This document shows, piece by piece, positions 428 to 45,864 of a DNA stretch of 48,689 nucleotides. The notes beneath the pieces are model-generated. The model was not told the DNA's origin, searched no databases, and saw nothing but the letters and a program-made list of their open reading frames with translations. The stretch is from assembly GCA_944325675.1 (NCBI GenBank), contig CALVAZ010000097.1, forward strand, positions 1-48,689. The letters run 5' to 3'. Source of the DNA: Candidatus Gastranaerophilales bacterium (GTDB lineage: Bacteria > Cyanobacteriota > Vampirovibrionia > Gastranaerophilales > Gastranaerophilaceae). Positions within the stretch are counted from its first letter, which is position 1. Every line of letters starts with the position of its first letter. Made by a program: the position numbers and the translations under genes.

Positions 428-1106
428 TTATAGTTTAGGGTAATTATCAGGAATCTTCCAATTATTAAGCTGTATAATTTTAGCCCACGCTCCAACATTA
501 TACAAATTCTCAAATGTTCCATCCCAGTTGTATGGAACATATGGTTCAATCCCTTTATCTTTAAAAAGATCATTACGCAATCCATACGCACCTCTCGGAT
601 AAAAACCGAAAAGAAAACACCCACGTCCATGCACATTAGACTTATATGCTTCATAATTAATGCAATAATTATAGTCTGAACCTGCATAACCAACAGCAAC
701 AACAGAACCATCACTCATATATACAAGAAGCATAGATTCCTCATTATCGTATAGGAGTTTGTTATATTTTAAATAATTTTTGAAATATTTATTAAAAAAG
801 GTTGTTAAACAAGCTTCACTATAAGCATTTGTTTTGCAATCAGCCAAATTATTATGAGTTTGACCAATATCCCATGTACTTTTATCTCCATAGTCAATTT
901 CTGCAAGCTGTATTGCCTGATTCATATAAGAATAAAACCTTTTCAACCTTGTTTCAATTTCTAATTTTTTATAATTACTTATCAAAGTTGGTATTGTCAT
1001 AGCAGCAACTATACCAATTATACCCAATGTAATCAACACCTCAGCCAAGGTAAAACCATTACTAAATCTACTTAGAGAAGATGCCCCCCCCCGTCGCTTT
1101 TCTCAT
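428..1106 (-). CDS. Type IV pilin-like protein 1, leader out of frame at a G9 tract
   Basis: The body is a type IV pilin/pseudopilin: a prepilin site GFTLAEVLITL followed by a hydrophobic helix (GIIGIVAAMTIPTLI) and an IETRLK amphipathic segment, about 210 residues, ending in NNWKIPDNYPKL. FT-LAE has the conserved Glu at position 5 of the mature form. The frame has no ATG: upstream codons read ASSLSRFSNG and then enter a run of nine G (1084-1092). The ATG at 1106 (MRKATG) joins the pilin frame only with eight G, and the ATG at 1113, well placed after AGGAGG (1121-1127), only with ten. With nine G both enter frames that stop within a few codons of the tract. The only in-frame start otherwise is a TTG inside the signal (1048), which would remove the leader. 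The gene is therefore OFF as written, phase variable, or affected by a homopolymer error. It follows the helicase on the same strand after a terminator. Confidence 0.75.
1029..1094 (-). repeat. 66-bp perfect repeat, copy 1 (pilin leader with G9)
   Basis: This segment is identical over 66 bases to 4589-4654. It encodes the G tract, the prepilin leader ASSLSRFSNG and the first mature residues up to LIT. Identity stops abruptly on both sides, although the two proteins are divergent immediately downstream. Conservation at synonymous positions points to recent recombination or gene conversion rather than protein-level selection. Confidence 0.9.
1084..1092 (-). repeat. G9 homopolymer in pilin leader 1
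   Basis: Nine consecutive C on the plus strand (G on the coding strand) lie between the ATG codons at 1106/1113 and the prepilin signal. Both non-pilin frames hit TAA or TAG within 12 bases after the tract, so any length change is a clean switch. Confidence 0.9.
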
Positions 1107-1120
1107 AAAACATGAAGTGT

Positions 1121-1138: not shown

Positions 1139-1160
1139 AAAAGATAACCCTGAAGTTATC
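1139..1160 (-). terminator. Intrinsic terminator of the helicase gene
   Basis: On the minus strand GATAAC-TTCAGG-GTTATC (1160-1143) is followed directly by TTTTT. It lies 13 bases after the helicase stop and separates it from pilin-like gene 1. Confidence 0.7.
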
Positions 1161-1172
1161 ATATCATACATT

Positions 1173-3461
1173 TTAATCAACATCAACCGGCTCACGCATA
1201 ATTTTTTCAATAGCTTCACGAGCCGTAAATACAAGTTCTTCAGGAACGTTATCAATAGTTGTAAACTGTCGCAAAACATCGACAGTCCTCTTGAAGGCTC
1301 TAACAATATCACCTTCACCCATATCAATCTGCTCAGTTATTGTTTCCCATTCGGCACCTTCAACCCATAACTCAATTAAAGAGCTAAAATAAGGGTTAAT
1401 ATATAAAGGTGCCTCAACCTGATATCTGTTTTGAACTTTTTCAATTTTACGTCGAACATTTCTGATTAAATTCAGGGGCTTTCTGACAGTAGGAGAAATA
1501 GGCAAATATGGTATATCTATTCTCAAATCTTCCGTTGTCACTGCACAAATAACTGCAGCCAATTGTGATGGAGTCAAGCCCTCTAAAACGTTAGAAAAGA
1601 TAATCTCTGCTATAAATAACTCATTTTCAGAACGGATTTGAGATGTTGTAACACCGTATGGCGTCGGGAAATCATTTTTTATGTACCCAAAATCAATTAA
1701 CACACTTCTGTGCGCCAAAAATTTATTCCAATAAATATCTTTCTGGCGTTCCATTTCTTTTTCGAGTCTTGCTTGCCGAACATCAATACGCCCAAGAACC
1801 TCAATATTTTTAGCATGTTTTCTGTAACGGTTACAATTATCACAAGGATATTCATGCAATTTGTCTAATAAAGCCTTGTTACTCTTTTTAAAATCCAAAA
1901 CTTCTTGCGACAATTGACGTTTTTTAGCCTGCTCTTGCTTACAGATTTTTTTATAGGTAGTCCTATTTTGGACATACAAGTGACGAAGTTTATCGTATTT
2001 TATGAAATCATCATCAGAAAGCTTATATGGACAAACAAATAATCTTTCAGCGCGTTCCTTTTCATTAATTTCAAACTGTTTTAACAATGGCTGCATTCTT
2101 GAACCGGCGGAATAATAACCAAAACTCTTTAAAATAAGCTCCTTCGATTCATCCAAACTAAATCTTTGAAGCAAATTCAAAACCATGGAATAACTTGGAG
2201 AAAATCTGCTTTCCAAAGGATTTGCATCACTCAAAACAAGTTCTGCTACCTCCTCAGGCGATTGAAAAGGAGTCCCGACAATAGTCACATAACCAATCTC
2301 ATCCATACCGCGGCGTCCTGCACGACCAGACATTTGCAAAAATTCACTTGCCGTAAGCATTCTATGCCCGGTATCGGTTCTTTTGCTTATAGAGCTTATG
2401 ACAGTTGATCTGGCAGGCATGTTTATTCCGGCAGCAAGAGTCTCAGTTGCAAAAACCACCTTGATAAGGCCCTGTTGAAATAATTTTTCAACTAAATTCT
2501 TCCACGCAGGCAAAAGCCCTGCATGGTGAGATGCAACGCCTTGTAATAAATATTCAATATGCTTATTTCCATAAAGATGAGGATTTTCTGCAATATATTC
2601 ATCAACAAATTGTCTGATTTGTGCTTGTTCACCTGCTGTAACCAAACCGATAGAGGCGCATTTTTCCATTTGTTCATCGCACTTTTTTCGAGAAAAAGTA
2701 AAATAAATTGCAGGCAGCATATCCTGATTCGCCAAATTCCTGATAACGTCCTTCACCGGAGATTTTTGCTTATTTTTACCATGCTTACCCCACTGATGCT
2801 TTTCAGGGTTGATTTTTTTATTTAATTGGCCGCTTGGTGTAAGCAGAGGCAGAAGTTTATTCGGCTGAGAGCTGTCAAAATAATAGAACCTTAATGGAAC
2901 AGGCCTAAAATCAGTATTTACAAGCTCTGTTTTTGAATGCACCGTATTAATCCAATTTGTTAATTCATCAGCATTAGCAACTGTTGCAGAAAGTGCAATA
3001 ATTTGAACATTTGTCGGACAATATATGATACTTTCTTCCCAAACTGTACCTCGCTGTTCGTCATTCATATAATGAACTTCATCCAAAACAACGTATTTAA
3101 CATCCTTCAAATTATCAGCAACAGCACCAAAATTTGTACCATACAGCATATTACGAAAAACTTCAGTTGTCATAACAACAATTTGACCGTTACGGTTAAT
3201 TGAAGTATCACCGGTTAATAAACCGACCTTATCTTGGCCATACTTTTCACCAAAATCATAATATTTTTGATTGGACAAAGCCTTCAAAGGAGTTGTATAG
3301 AAAATTCTTTTACCTTCTTCTAATGCTCGATGAATTGCATGTTGTGCGATAACCGTTTTACCAGCACCTGTTGGCGCGCAAACCACAACACTTTTGCCTT
3401 CATTTATAAAATTACAGGCCTCATTCTGAAAATCATCCAATTCAAATGGAAACTCGTACAT
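1173..3461 (-). CDS. Ski2/Mtr4-like superfamily II RNA helicase
   Basis: A 762-aa DExH helicase. Visible motifs are Walker A APTGAGKT (residues 29-36), the DEVH box in VVLDEVHYMND (about 125), SATVANADE (motif III), and QMSGRAGRRGMDE (motif VI). After the two RecA domains there is a Lys/Arg-rich coiled region with a four-Cys cluster (CPYKL, CDNCNRY). A C-terminal helical region resembles the DSHCT domain of Ski2/Mtr4/Dob10 helicases. The family unwinds structured RNA, and bacterial members occur in cyanobacteria and actinobacteria. The exact RNA target is unknown. The start ATG follows GAGGGTAGTT. It appears monocistronic, with its own terminator. Confidence 0.88.
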   Translation of the reverse strand: MYEFPFELDDFQNEACNFINEGKSVVVCAPTGAGKTVIAQHAIHRALEEGKRIFYTTPLKALSNQKYYDFGEKYGQDKVGLLTGDTSINRNGQIVVMTTEVFRNMLYGTNFGAVADNLKDVKYVVLDEVHYMNDEQRGTVWEESIIYCPTNVQIIALSATVANADELTNWINTVHSKTELVNTDFRPVPLRFYYFDSSQPNKLLPLLTPSGQLNKKINPEKHQWGKHGKNKQKSPVKDVIRNLANQDMLPAIYFTFSRKKCDEQMEKCASIGLVTAGEQAQIRQFVDEYIAENPHLYGNKHIEYLLQGVASHHAGLLPAWKNLVEKLFQQGLIKVVFATETLAAGINMPARSTVISSISKRTDTGHRMLTASEFLQMSGRAGRRGMDEIGYVTIVGTPFQSPEEVAELVLSDANPLESRFSPSYSMVLNLLQRFSLDESKELILKSFGYYSAGSRMQPLLKQFEINEKERAERLFVCPYKLSDDDFIKYDKLRHLYVQNRTTYKKICKQEQAKKRQLSQEVLDFKKSNKALLDKLHEYPCDNCNRYRKHAKNIEVLGRIDVRQARLEKEMERQKDIYWNKFLAHRSVLIDFGYIKNDFPTPYGVTTSQIRSENELFIAEIIFSNVLEGLTPSQLAAVICAVTTEDLRIDIPYLPISPTVRKPLNLIRNVRRKIEKVQNRYQVEAPLYINPYFSSLIELWVEGAEWETITEQIDMGEGDIVRAFKRTVDVLRQFTTIDNVPEELVFTAREAIEKIMREPVDVD

Positions 3462-3489
3462 AACTACCCTCTTAAAGCATTCCTGATAT

Positions 3490-3495
3490 ATTATA
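3490..3495 (-). promoter_or_regulatory. Probable -10 box of the helicase gene
   Basis: A perfect TATAAT on the minus strand lies 28 bases upstream of the helicase ATG. A weak TTATCA is a possible -35 at 19-base spacing. Confidence 0.4.
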
Positions 3496-3603
3496 ACACA
3501 TTATGCGTACATTGTGATAAATTTTAAAATCAATAGCAAAAAATCATATCCTCATATTTTATTTATACGTACAATACAATTTTTTTAATTAGAAGGCATG
3601 TTT

Positions 3604-3876
3604 ATGTATATTAGCCAAATAAAACCTGTTAATTTCACAGGTGGTCAAAGAATAAAAATTAAAATAACAAATAATACCGAAGATTACCAAAAAGGCTTCA
3701 AAATGGGGAAAACATTCCCAAAAGAAAGACTTGAAATTGAACTTAGGAAATATTCCTCTAATCCAAAATTCACAAGCATAGTACAAGGTATACTAGATGG
3801 AATAGAAAGTCTTACAAATCCTAACAAAGAAATCCAAAAGCTTGAAAAAGGTAATTACAAGGGTAAAATAAAGTAA
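3604..3876 (+). CDS. Small hypothetical protein, VNFTG motif
   Basis: A 90-aa open frame beginning MYISQIKPVNFTGGQ, followed by a basic region and ending in a Lys-rich tail. The ATG at 3604 is preferred over the in-frame ATG at 3598 because AGAAGG sits 7 bases upstream of 3604 and only one base from 3598. I recognise no domain and see no signal peptide. It stands alone on the plus strand between the helicase and pilin-like gene 2. It could be a lineage-specific gene; absence of homologues would make it doubtful. Confidence 0.5.
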   Translation: MYISQIKPVNFTGGQRIKIKITNNTEDYQKGFKMGKTFPKERLEIELRKYSSNPKFTSIVQGILDGIESLTNPNKEIQKLEKGNYKGKIK

Positions 3877-3894
3877 ATTGAGATATATAAAATT

Positions 3895-4696
3895 TTAATC
3901 GAATTTTATTGGATAATCTTTGGGAATTTTCCAATTATTACATTCAATTAAAGCAGTACAAAATATACCTTTTGTGTAACCATGAGTATCAGAAATAGAA
4001 TCATTACAGTAAGAAAGTTTATGCTCTCTCGAAATCTGATTACCACAAAAATTTACGGTCGCTGCACTATAATCTTTTGTGGAAGTAATACTTGAGACAT
4101 TATCCAAAACTATTAAATTCAAGCTGAAAGCATTTTCACCCATTATCATTTTACTTCCGTGGGACAAATCTATCACAAATCTGCCGCGCCTAGGTGATAA
4201 TAAAGCTGTATTACCTGAAAGATAAATAATACCGATACCATTACTTAAAATATATTTTTTAGTACCACCCGAGACTATTGATGTTTTATCTTGACTATAT
4301 ACACTTGTTTGACAAATACCTTTTCCTGAATTATTATCTTCAACAACTTCTGAGTTTTCACAAATTCTTGGATTTTTCAAATAAGTAATTAAAAATTTAT
4401 CAAATAAATCATCTGAGTCATTAACTAATCCCCAAGTTTGCGGTTCGCCGTAATCAACAACCGCTAGCTTTAAAATATTTTGTAAAATACTATAAGAATA
4501 CTTCAACTCCGTTTCAATTTTTAATTTCCTATATGTATGAAACAAAGTTGGTAAAAACACAGCTGATATAACACCTATGATAGCAAGCGTAATCAACACC
4601 TCAGCCAAGGTAAAACCATTACTAAATCTACTTAGAGAAGATGCCCCCCCCCGTTCCCTCAGCGACTAACCATAATAACTTCCTCCTAAGAATCAT
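3895..4696 (-). CDS. Type IV pilin-like protein 2, leader out of frame at a G9 tract
   Basis: A pilin-like protein of about 237 residues from the signal onward: GFTLAEVLITL, hydrophobic helix (AIIGVISAVFLPTLF), then IETELKYSYS, ending CNNWKIPKDYPIKFD. It shares the DYGEPQTWG region with pilin-like protein 1. The frame upstream of the signal passes through nine G (4644-4652) to a TAG with no ATG. With eight G the frame opens to an ATG at 4696 (MILRRK), one base after the serS stop, which suggests coupling to serS. The ATG at 4673 has a good AGGAGG but reads MVSR and stops whatever the tract length. So the gene looks OFF as written and ON at G8, as for gene 1. A silent donor cassette is the alternative. 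Confidence 0.7.
4589..4654 (-). repeat. 66-bp perfect repeat, copy 2 (pilin leader with G9)
   Basis: Identical to 1029-1094 in direct orientation, about 3.56 kb away. It covers the G tract and the prepilin signal. Upstream flanks (GAGGGAAC versus AAAGCGAC) and downstream flanks differ. Confidence 0.9.
4644..4652 (-). repeat. G9 homopolymer in pilin leader 2
   Basis: Nine G on the coding strand, the same length as in copy 1. Only a length of 8 (or 11) connects the pilin frame to an upstream ATG (4696). Confidence 0.9.
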
Positions 4697-4697
4697 G

Positions 4698-5984
<1,287 letters not shown>

Positions 5985-43252: not shown

Positions 43253-43888
43253 CTAATAATCCATATTCCAGTCGGCATTGATAATTCTATTGAAACACCC
43301 TGAACCGTAAGAATTTTCACGACAAACCGCAACATCATCTGGATCCGATACTCTATCACCAATATAAGCATCCTTATATATGTAAAACAAGAACAAATCT
43401 CTACCTGCTATATTAGGGCGAGAAGGTCCATTTACATCAACCCAAACACTTGCAGCCTCAGAATCAGTAGGCGGCTTTATACAAATTGAAGAACCAACAG
43501 ATGTTTTAACACAGTAAGCCGAACCGGTAGCTGGCAACGATACCTCTACTCCCTCTAAATTTTTATATGAGGACGCAAAACACACACCCGGCTCATTCTC
43601 ACAATCTACCGTGACAGTAAAATATTTCTTCAAAAAAGCCCCCGCAGTGTTTTCAACAGTATCAGAAGTATCATCAAAAAACAAAGATGATTTTGGAATT
43701 GATTTTACTCTTTCATCAATCATCATAAGCTTTATAGCATTAGTCAACGCTGTATAAGACCTTTGTAAACCTGCCACCTGGGATTTTTTACTAAAATTAG
43801 ATGCAACAATTGGAATCGTAATAATTAAAATAACACCAATTATTGCCATAGCTATCAAAAGTTCATTTAGAGTAAAAGCCTTTTTCAT
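43253..43888 (-). CDS. Type IV pilin-like protein D
   Basis: 211 aa. Short prepilin leader MKKA then FTLNELLIAMAIIGVILI (cleavage before Phe, Glu at +5) and the N-terminal helix. The globular part has Cys residues in VDCENEPGVCFASSYK, the loop DVNGPSRPNIAGRDLFLF (a DxNG...PN..GRD motif shared by genes A-D that resembles pseudopilin calcium loops) and the C-terminus ADWNMDY. GAGGTG precedes the ATG. Last of four tandem pilin-like genes, followed by the flippase. Whether it is a pilus subunit or a minor pseudopilin is unknown. Confidence 0.85.
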   Translation of the reverse strand: MKKAFTLNELLIAMAIIGVILIITIPIVASNFSKKSQVAGLQRSYTALTNAIKLMMIDERVKSIPKSSLFFDDTSDTVENTAGAFLKKYFTVTVDCENEPGVCFASSYKNLEGVEVSLPATGSAYCVKTSVGSSICIKPPTDSEAASVWVDVNGPSRPNIAGRDLFLFYIYKDAYIGDRVSDPDDVAVCRENSYGSGCFNRIINADWNMDY

Positions 43889-43899
43889 AAAACACCTCA

Positions 43900-44532
43900 T
43901 TAATAATCCATCTTCCAATTATTTTGTTGTAAGTAATCAAAGCAAGTAAAGAAATAACCATTAAATGATTTACAATCGGATGCCATATCCGTTAATGAAT
44001 CCATAACATACATATCTTTTGAAGACAATTCACCTCTTTCGGTAATATGTAGTATAAAAAAGTCACGTCCCAAAACATTAGGCGGATCAATATTATTGAC
44101 ATCAACATAAATATATTTCCAAAAATCTTCTGGAATTCCAACTGAAACACCGTTACGCAAAACGACATAATCACCTTTCCAAATCATATCCGTTCTGGCT
44201 CTACCTTCAATATCTTTGTATGCATCTGCAAAACAACCAGTCAAAGAAGAATTACAATACTTTTGAACATCAAAATAGAGCCTAAAGAAAGCATGCTCTT
44301 GTGTTTCATCACTGTATTCTAGAGGTAAATCAAAATCATCCACCGACGTAATTCCTTGAGTAGCCATAGCCTCTCTTAAAGAAGTATCCAACTTATTGTA
44401 AGTTGATTGCAACAATGCGACATAAGATTTAGAATATGCATTACGTGTAACATTCGGAAGAGTAAGGACCGCAATTACCCCCACTATGGTTAAAGCTATT
44501 AACAATTCCGACAAACTGAACGCCTTTTTCAT
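43900..44532 (-). CDS. Type IV pilin-like protein C
   Basis: 210 aa. Leader MKKA, then FSLSELLIALTIVGVIAVL. It shares YKDIEGRAR and the loop DVNNIDPPNVLGRDFFIL with its neighbours, and ends NNWKMDY. TAGGAG overlapping the previous stop is its ribosome-binding site. Third of four in the operon. Sequence between the conserved blocks is highly divergent from A, B and D, so these are distinct subunits, not recent duplicates. Confidence 0.85.
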   Translation of the reverse strand: MKKAFSLSELLIALTIVGVIAVLTLPNVTRNAYSKSYVALLQSTYNKLDTSLREAMATQGITSVDDFDLPLEYSDETQEHAFFRLYFDVQKYCNSSLTGCFADAYKDIEGRARTDMIWKGDYVVLRNGVSVGIPEDFWKYIYVDVNNIDPPNVLGRDFFILHITERGELSSKDMYVMDSLTDMASDCKSFNGYFFTCFDYLQQNNWKMDY

Positions 44533-44540
44533 ACTATCTC

Positions 44541-45203
44541 CTAATAATCCATTTCCCAATTATTACTTTCTAACAATACATAACAGTCCAAACCTGCATT
44601 AGTGACGCTTGAATGACAAGAGTTTCTAAGTGTAGATGCGTCATAAGAAGATGTTGTGTCATATCCGACTGAACCATCCGGAAAAAGTTCAACTGTGTAG
44701 TAATCTCTACCATAAACATTTGGTGCCTCAGGCCCATTAACATCAATATTGAAAAAACCTATGGCATTTGTACTTACAACACCACCAGATGGACAAAATC
44801 TAACAGCAGCACCGGAAGGAAGCAATACCTCAAAACTGTCATCTTCATTTTGAGAGCATTCTAATGGTGTAGATATAGAACCAGAAGCCGAATCAATAGT
44901 CTTAGGTGAAGCGGGTAAACAACTTCTTGAAGTATTAACGCAATCAACTGTAATTGTTAAATACTTATCGAGAAATTCACTTACGTCATAATATAAAGAC
45001 CCATCTTTCAAATCAGTTACACGTTCTTCAACCATCATATTACTGACTGACGCTTCTATATCCTTTATAGTAGTTTGCAGTTTCACAACATACGATTTAT
45101 TAAATATATTTCTTGTTACGTTGGGAACTAGCAAAACCGCTAATACCCCAATAACAACCATAACAATCAGTAACTCAGACAATGTAAAACCTTTAATATT
45201 CAT
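44541..45203 (-). CDS. Type IV pilin-like protein B
   Basis: 220 aa. Leader MNIKG, a classical G-F cleavage site, then FTLSELLIVMVVIGVLAVLL. Cys pair region VDCVNTSRSCLPAS, the loop DVNGPEAPNVYGRDYYTV and C-terminus NNWEMDY. The ATG at 45203 follows TAGGAGG, which overlaps the stop of gene A, so A and B are translationally coupled. Longer in-frame starts upstream lie inside gene A and are rejected. Confidence 0.86.
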   Translation of the reverse strand: MNIKGFTLSELLIVMVVIGVLAVLLVPNVTRNIFNKSYVVKLQTTIKDIEASVSNMMVEERVTDLKDGSLYYDVSEFLDKYLTITVDCVNTSRSCLPASPKTIDSASGSISTPLECSQNEDDSFEVLLPSGAAVRFCPSGGVVSTNAIGFFNIDVNGPEAPNVYGRDYYTVELFPDGSVGYDTTSSYDASTLRNSCHSSVTNAGLDCYVLLESNNWEMDY

Positions 45204-45210
45204 AGTCCTC

Positions 45211-45864
45211 CTAATAATCCATCTTCCAATCTGAAAATTGCAATTCTTGCAAACAAGGTTGACCATATGAATAACCCGACAAACACTGTGATTTTCTAAA
45301 ATCAGTATCCTCAAACGGCTGATAATAAGCAGTTCTAATTTCTCCTGTATATAATACCCTAAATGAAAACAAGTCTCTGCCTATAACATTCGGTGCATCC
45401 TTACCGTTAATATCAAAAAGAAATACCCCGACAGCATTGTAATCATCTGGAGTGAAAAGCAACACCGAAACACCACTTGGCAAAATCACACTGTATGAAT
45501 CAAAACCATCATCCGAAAATATCGCATCCAGTTCATCAGATTCATCACCATTAATTGATTTATAACTTGAAGCAAAACATTTTTCATGCTCTTTAGCGCA
45601 AACCCTACTTAGCTTAAAATAGTCTTCAAAAAATTTAGCTTTATCTAAAAACAGAGTTGAATCAGCCAGATCAGCGACTTGTTCTCTAACTTTGACCTTT
45701 GATACTGAATCCGAAAGGGTTTTCAAAGTTGCTTGGATTTTAACTATGTCTGAACGATTAAATATATTTTTCGTAACATTGGGAACAGTCAAAATGGCTA
45801 TCACGCCGACAACCGCCATTGCTATCAAAAGTTCAGCTAAAGTAAAAGCAAGTAGTCTTTTCAT
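45211..45864 (-). CDS. Type IV pilin-like protein A
   Basis: 217 aa. Leader MKRLLA, then FTLAELLIAMAVVGVIAILT; the residue before the cleavage site is Ala rather than the usual Gly, as in C and D. Loop DINGKDAPNVIGRDLFSF and C-terminus SDWKMDY. GGGGG is the nearest Shine-Dalgarno. First gene of the A-B-C-D-flippase operon. A TATAAT (45956-45951) upstream gives a leader of about 80 nt. Confidence 0.86.
   Translation of the reverse strand: MKRLLAFTLAELLIAMAVVGVIAILTVPNVTKNIFNRSDIVKIQATLKTLSDSVSKVKVREQVADLADSTLFLDKAKFFEDYFKLSRVCAKEHEKCFASSYKSINGDESDELDAIFSDDGFDSYSVILPSGVSVLLFTPDDYNAVGVFLFDINGKDAPNVIGRDLFSFRVLYTGEIRTAYYQPFEDTDFRKSQCLSGYSYGQPCLQELQFSDWKMDY

Follow-up and report, generated by a model that had tools for sequence, protein, structure and literature searches.

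In Bifidobacterium breve, sortase pilin genes are switched by G tracts inside the coding sequence, and the published account describes tract lengths that differ within a culture and shift in mice (PMC9187656). The parallels with the genes analyzed here are close. B. breve UCC2003 is likewise a gut commensal, its tracts of 9-12 G lie in the first gene of the pilus operon (bbr_0113, bbr_1889), and according to the same report the tract likewise joins or separates two frames and the common length can be OFF (PMC9187656). For Campylobacter jejuni NCTC11168, 29 polyG/polyC loci have been reported; here too there are many G/C tracts of at least seven bases per genome, and length sets the ON or OFF state through the reading frame (PMC4965091). 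A further likeness is with homopolymer recoding sites, at which transcription slips or a programmed frameshift occurs (reviewed in PMC5009743); these also combine a homopolymer, a zero-frame stop soon after it and an open frame one base off. Among the titles and abstracts of open-access papers on phase variation and pilins in the lineage, we found no description of a tract-gated pilin system.

The genes in question lie in a 48,689-nucleotide stretch of DNA from a Candidatus Gastranaerophilales bacterium, all of which was analyzed and which we call the window. Each sortase-dependent pilus operon of B. breve is reported to have a single tract; the genome studied here has about two dozen gated type IV pilin-like paralogues, and unlike the B. 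breve tracts, as these are described, they have a shared, apparently homogenized leader and a near-fixed register in many species. The polyG tracts of C. jejuni sit in many kinds of gene, whereas the present ones belong to one gene family, with one cassette and mostly one register. Unlike homopolymer recoding sites, the family has some relatives in the opposite register. Should the gate prove real across the family, a single gene family of an uncultured gut lineage would include many tract-gated members, and the number of pilins displayed by one cell could be studied there in a natural setting. The family would also bring within reach of experiment the question of whether a conserved out-of-frame register reflects biased slippage in DNA or slippage during expression.

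A family of tract-gated pilin genes

The window holds two gated pilin genes, both on the minus strand. The frame of the serS-linked pilin extends from the last G of its tract to the stop codon (3895..4644), and the first pilin occupies 428..1084. Both match N_methyl (PF07963), with 26.4 and 26.3 bits against a Pfam cut-off of 21.2, and both exceed the Pfam cut-off for DUF6613 (PF20318). A structure model of the serS-linked pilin based on 21 sequences (pLDDT 84.6, pTM 0.82) predicts a 55-residue N-terminal helix (residues 2-56), followed by strands and a beta-rich head. Type IV pilins ranked first in the VIA structure comparison, at a modest Z of 4.2; a Foldseek search of the PDB with the model returned nothing below E 0.001, and phmmer against PDB sequences gave weak N-terminal matches only (best E 0.0067). 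We describe the protein as predicted to be type IV pilin-like. It is like type IV pilins and pseudopilins (PF07963) in its GFTLAEVLITL motif, long N-terminal helix and beta-rich head, but differs from them in that the leader before the cleavage motif can be as long as about 190 residues in relatives and in that the C-terminal part is DUF6613, which by sequence lacks a close relative of known structure. Towards the opposite end of the window there is a separate cluster of N_methyl matches (43817-45858, with matches at 43817, 44461, 45129 and 45790, minus strand).

The gate of the serS-linked pilin is a minus-strand run of exactly nine G (4652-4644, that is 4644..4652), and the first pilin has a G9 tract of its own at 1084..1092 (minus strand). 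Runs of eight G would be expected 0.15 times by chance in the window; four matches were observed, all from the two pilin tracts. The tract of the serS-linked gene belongs to a 66-base block (4589..4654, minus strand) that comprises the end of the leader, the tract, a stop-rich flank (CTCTAAGTAG) and the start of the pilin, and that is identical to 1029-1094 at the first pilin. The two genes have this perfect block in common, yet their proteins are 38% identical over 103 columns. Judged from these sequences, the block looks like a gate cassette that has been homogenized between loci, presumably by recombination.

We searched the 1.47-Mb source genome of the window (G000; 120 contigs, 86% complete) with the tract and flank and inspected 21 stretches, which with the two window genes gave 23 loci. 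All 23 have a common layout, consisting of a Shine-Dalgarno sequence, a start codon, a short variable leader that places 10-21 further bases between start codon and tract, the G tract, a conserved flank such as CAACTCCTTTAAGTAG, and an open frame into the prepilin motif GFTLAEVLITL or a close variant. An earlier, sequence-only reading had assigned the same tract gate to both window pilins, and the 23 alike loci indicate that the gate is real.

The length at which these genes open is also consistent across the genome. At 22 of the 23 loci the distance from the Shine-Dalgarno-supported start to the tract is a multiple of three, and tract lengths with n = 1 mod 3 (G10 or G7) bring this start and the pilin into one register. 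G8 is never the in-register length for these 22, which argues against G8 as the ON state, as had been suggested from the window alone. The single exception has eight G plus an A and is already in frame as it stands; a TGA of its own blocks one of the 22, the serS-linked copy. The tracts present in the assembly are G9 at 18 loci and G8 at two, all out of frame, and G10 and G7 at one locus each, both in frame, so that three loci are in frame and 20 out of frame and both states occur among the copies. As in contingency loci, a homopolymeric tract in the 5' coding region sets the reading frame. The pilin frame has no stop among the 595 codons that separate the tracts from the prepilin motifs, against 64 and 116 in the other two frames, suggesting that the leader is probably translated into pilin at least sometimes. 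G000 has 75 N_methyl matches at E up to 1; with 23 gated loci, about one-third of its pilin-like genes would be gated.

The first pilin illustrates the common register. Its better start is an ATG at 1111..1113 (minus strand), eight bases after AGGAGG, and from this start a tract of G10 or G7 leads into the pilin frame (giving MFYEKSDGGGASSLSRFSNGFTLAEV at G10). The statement that both window genes become complete with one G fewer is literally correct; the first pilin, however, is also complete at G10 or G7 from ATG1113. Among the G9 loci of G000, an ATG in the one-G-fewer frame occurs in the two window copies only, each time without a Shine-Dalgarno sequence, which speaks against a G8 start, and one other G9 locus has a TTG in that frame.

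The serS-linked pilin and its junction

The second window pilin follows serS (4698..5969, minus strand), which encodes a seryl-tRNA synthetase with matches in Candidatus Gastranaerophilales at up to 96% identity. Several details of the sequence-only reading were confirmed at this junction. With nine G, the pilin frame can be followed upstream no further than a TAG and contains no ATG, leaving the open segment SLRERGGASSLSRFSN; at G8 a 266-amino-acid frame opens from ATG4696 (4694..4696, minus strand), which lies one base past the serS TAG and lacks a Shine-Dalgarno sequence. The well-placed ATG4673 reads MVSR-TGA at 7, 8, 9 and 10 G. The latter is the family-type start (4671..4673, minus strand), 21 nt before the tract and eight bases after AGGAGG (4682-4687, minus strand). 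The TGA at 4659..4661 (minus strand) is codon 5 of the leader and the sole leader stop among 204 classified loci, and it blocks the pilin from the family-type start even at G10. Because of this unique in-frame stop the serS-linked copy is most likely locked OFF, and we regard it as probably locked OFF or decaying.

As an explanation of its own, a silent and decaying serS-linked gene in a family whose other members may switch seems unlikely to us. It accounts for the only leader stop in the 204 loci and agrees with the lack of a pilin at the serS junction in two relatives (L030 and L033). On the other hand, the downstream frame is intact, with 240 residues from the motif, and homologues exist at 49-53% identity, so that decay would have to be recent; the TGA itself may be a sequence error, which is possible in a fragmented assembly. 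This explanation concerns the serS-linked copy only, is compatible with phase variation across the family, and the copy itself is of little importance.

The sequence-only reading had gone further and proposed that G8 is the ON state, with the pilin translated from ATG4696 and thereby coupled to serS. A 266-residue frame does open there, and a leaderless start is conceivable because a -10-like sequence in the end of serS would place the transcript start near ATG4696. Comparison of serS-pilin junctions in relatives showed that a start at the upstream stop is not conserved. L032 and L035 both have a tract leader after serS, with its own Shine-Dalgarno-supported ATG 24 or 19 bases past the stop and no stop inside, and both lack ATG4696. 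In L032 the tract is G9, its flank is the usual one, and G10 would be the in-frame length; the contig stops shortly behind the tract, before the pilin itself. In L035 the tract is G10, and G9 would be the in-frame length. Moreover, the G8 frame would translate AGGAGG as Arg-Arg, and no other G9 locus of G000 has such an ATG, bar the incidental one in the first pilin. On the paralogues and the serS junctions we rejected G8 as the ON state together with coupling to serS, and consider this model highly improbable.

Other junctions differ in content. In L034 and L038 a tractless pilin follows serS, and in L030 and L033 a helicase gene follows directly, with no pilin after serS. In L030 there is also no pilin behind the helicase (the corresponding window segments are 428-1173 and 3462-4697), which makes this relative an empty site for both window pilins. 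The 53%-identical homologue of the serS-linked pilin in G008 lies elsewhere in the genome, behind a G9 tract. The position behind serS is best explained as the place where the pilin gene was gained and not as a coupling device. We found no terminator-like site between serS and the pilin, and the two may be co-transcribed.

A promoter of its own is also possible for the serS-linked pilin, because the last serS codons contain TGATATAAT (4705..4713, minus strand), an extended -10-like sequence and candidate promoter, preceded at a spacing of 17 bases by a weak -35, TTGCGT. Because this -35 is weak, the promoter scan did not report the site. The serS genes of L032, L033 and L035 end in the same sequence, which may therefore also be kept by the coding sequence of serS.

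Register, tract length and possible slippage in relatives

The pattern of a Shine-Dalgarno sequence, ATG and G run matched in 26 of 40 genomes (one genome per species), and frames were classified for 204 loci from 21 genomes and two serS stretches. The pilin is one base short at 149 loci, in frame at 33 and two short at 22. In the twelve genomes with short tracts (8-10 bases, 166 loci) the split is 140 one short, 21 in frame and 5 two short, and in six other genomes it is 6, 10 and 16, respectively; these groups were chosen after the tract lengths had been seen, and as the loci are related the counts are not independent trials and serve as description only.

The one-short register recurs in different settings: with G9 in the genus of the window, with G10 and another flank in G005 (two leader kinds), with G10 at offsets 29 and 30 in G021 (again two leader kinds), with G8 in G022 and with G10 in G057. 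Leaders with a C tract show it too: of the C9 loci for which a start was scored, all ten are one base short, and of the C-tract loci overall 12 of 14 are. In G018 and G076 the commonest register deviates by one base in the opposite direction, and G024 shows a mixture. Tract length varies in these three genomes. Five of 11 near-identical leader pairs in G018 are unequal (for example L118 with G9 and L120 with G11, whose 24 upstream bases are the same), tracts in G076 are G9, G10 and G11 with differences within near-identical leader pairs (some involving L387, which is cut by the end of the stretch), and those in G024 are G11, G12 (in frame) and G13. In short-tract species such pairs are rarely unequal (0 of 8 in G002, 0 of 3 in G010, and 3 of 18 in G021).

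We consider slipped-strand phase variation, with the pilins OFF by default and one G away from ON, to be the simplest account and somewhat better than an even bet. A ribosome starting at the supported start codon, about 13-31 bases before the tract, would have to leave the tract in the pilin frame. With the usual nine G of G000 it would meet a stop a few codons past the tract, and G10 or G7, a gain of one G or a loss of two, would join the leader to the prepilin. Slipped-strand mispairing of the DNA in living cells would shift the tract length, so that each pilin would be expressed in a minority of cells and the cell surface would be expected to vary. The scheme is supported by the variable tracts of the long-tract genomes G018, G024 and G076, by the common register of the G000 loci and the stop-free pilin frame of the leaders, by the B. 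breve precedent and by the register that C-tract leaders share; the near-fixed register and rarely unequal pairs of short-tract species count against it, since a freely flipping tract would not be expected to hold its register unless slippage is biased to 9-10 G. With such a bias in short tracts, a locus in the third register would stay OFF permanently and be eliminated, and the 140:21:5 split fits this if tracts are kept at 9-10. By itself, phase variation leaves the constancy of the short-tract register unexplained.

This constancy is what makes recoding at a fixed homopolymer a serious rival, although we think it rather unlikely. Slippage by RNA polymerase, or a -1 frameshift by the ribosome, would supply the missing base in some of the transcripts or ribosome passages, the G9 genes would be expressed at a set low level, and tract length would be under selection and not hypermutable. 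Such recoding would fit the recurrence of the one-short register across different leaders, flanks, offsets and tract lengths and in C9 leaders, the asymmetry of the remaining states (in short-tract species, 21 loci in frame but 5 two bases short), and pilin frames that stay open despite an out-of-frame consensus. It also fits the leaders of G000, where mean identity over the 15 bases before the tract is 36%, yet leader lengths change in steps of three. Slippage with an equilibrium of 9-10 bases would, however, give the same asymmetry, and G018 and G076, mostly one base the other way, and the mixed G024 are at odds with recoding. A tRNA-specific ribosomal shift is disfavored because G-tract and C-tract leaders behave alike, and their common register suggests a mechanism indifferent to strand. 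Ribosomal frameshifting as the sole explanation is weakened by the C-tract register together with the opposite register in G018 and G076.

The two mechanisms may also be divided between species. We tentatively entertain that the run of nine G or C in short-tract genomes is a fixed slippage site of dozens of paralogues, each kept one base out of frame, with a set fraction of its transcripts or translation events productive, and that in long-tract relatives this site has become a phase-variation switch; this we hold to be doubtful on present grounds.

Other tract and leader types were seen in these genomes. L024, L032, L161, L175, L243, L280 and L290 have another leader type (M..KAVQI..), with a sense-strand C9 before the pilin. 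A third tract class, in sequences that begin with CAAATACGCAT, occurs in the opposite orientation in G002, G008 and G010; its tracts, 7 to 12 bases long, seem to vary more than those of the G9 class in these genomes. In L157, L177, L181, L187, L223, L376, L380 and others the leader from tract to motif is about 100 to 190 residues long and open throughout; several of these leaders hold repeat-like segments that recur in other leaders.

Promoter-like sequences near the tracts

Upstream of the first pilin is a promoter-like TTGATG-17-TATGAT with a TG before the -10 (1158..1186, minus strand), a consensus match only. A different arrangement is frequent in the longer leaders of G000. Among leaders of at least 30 bases, 15 of 20 contain TTGACA and TATAAT with a 17-base spacer and at most one mismatch between tract and pilin, nearly always with an ATG close behind. 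Shuffled leaders from all species showed this internal pattern in 4 of 870 cases, and both window pilins are without it. Where the internal sequence is present, a short-leader pilin might be produced from it, bypassing the tract. A near-perfect internal TTGACA-17-TATAAT, followed by an ATG that sits just before the prepilin motif, is present in L003, L005-L008, L010, L012, L015, L016, L020-L023 and L027 and in leaders of G015, G044, G010 and others.
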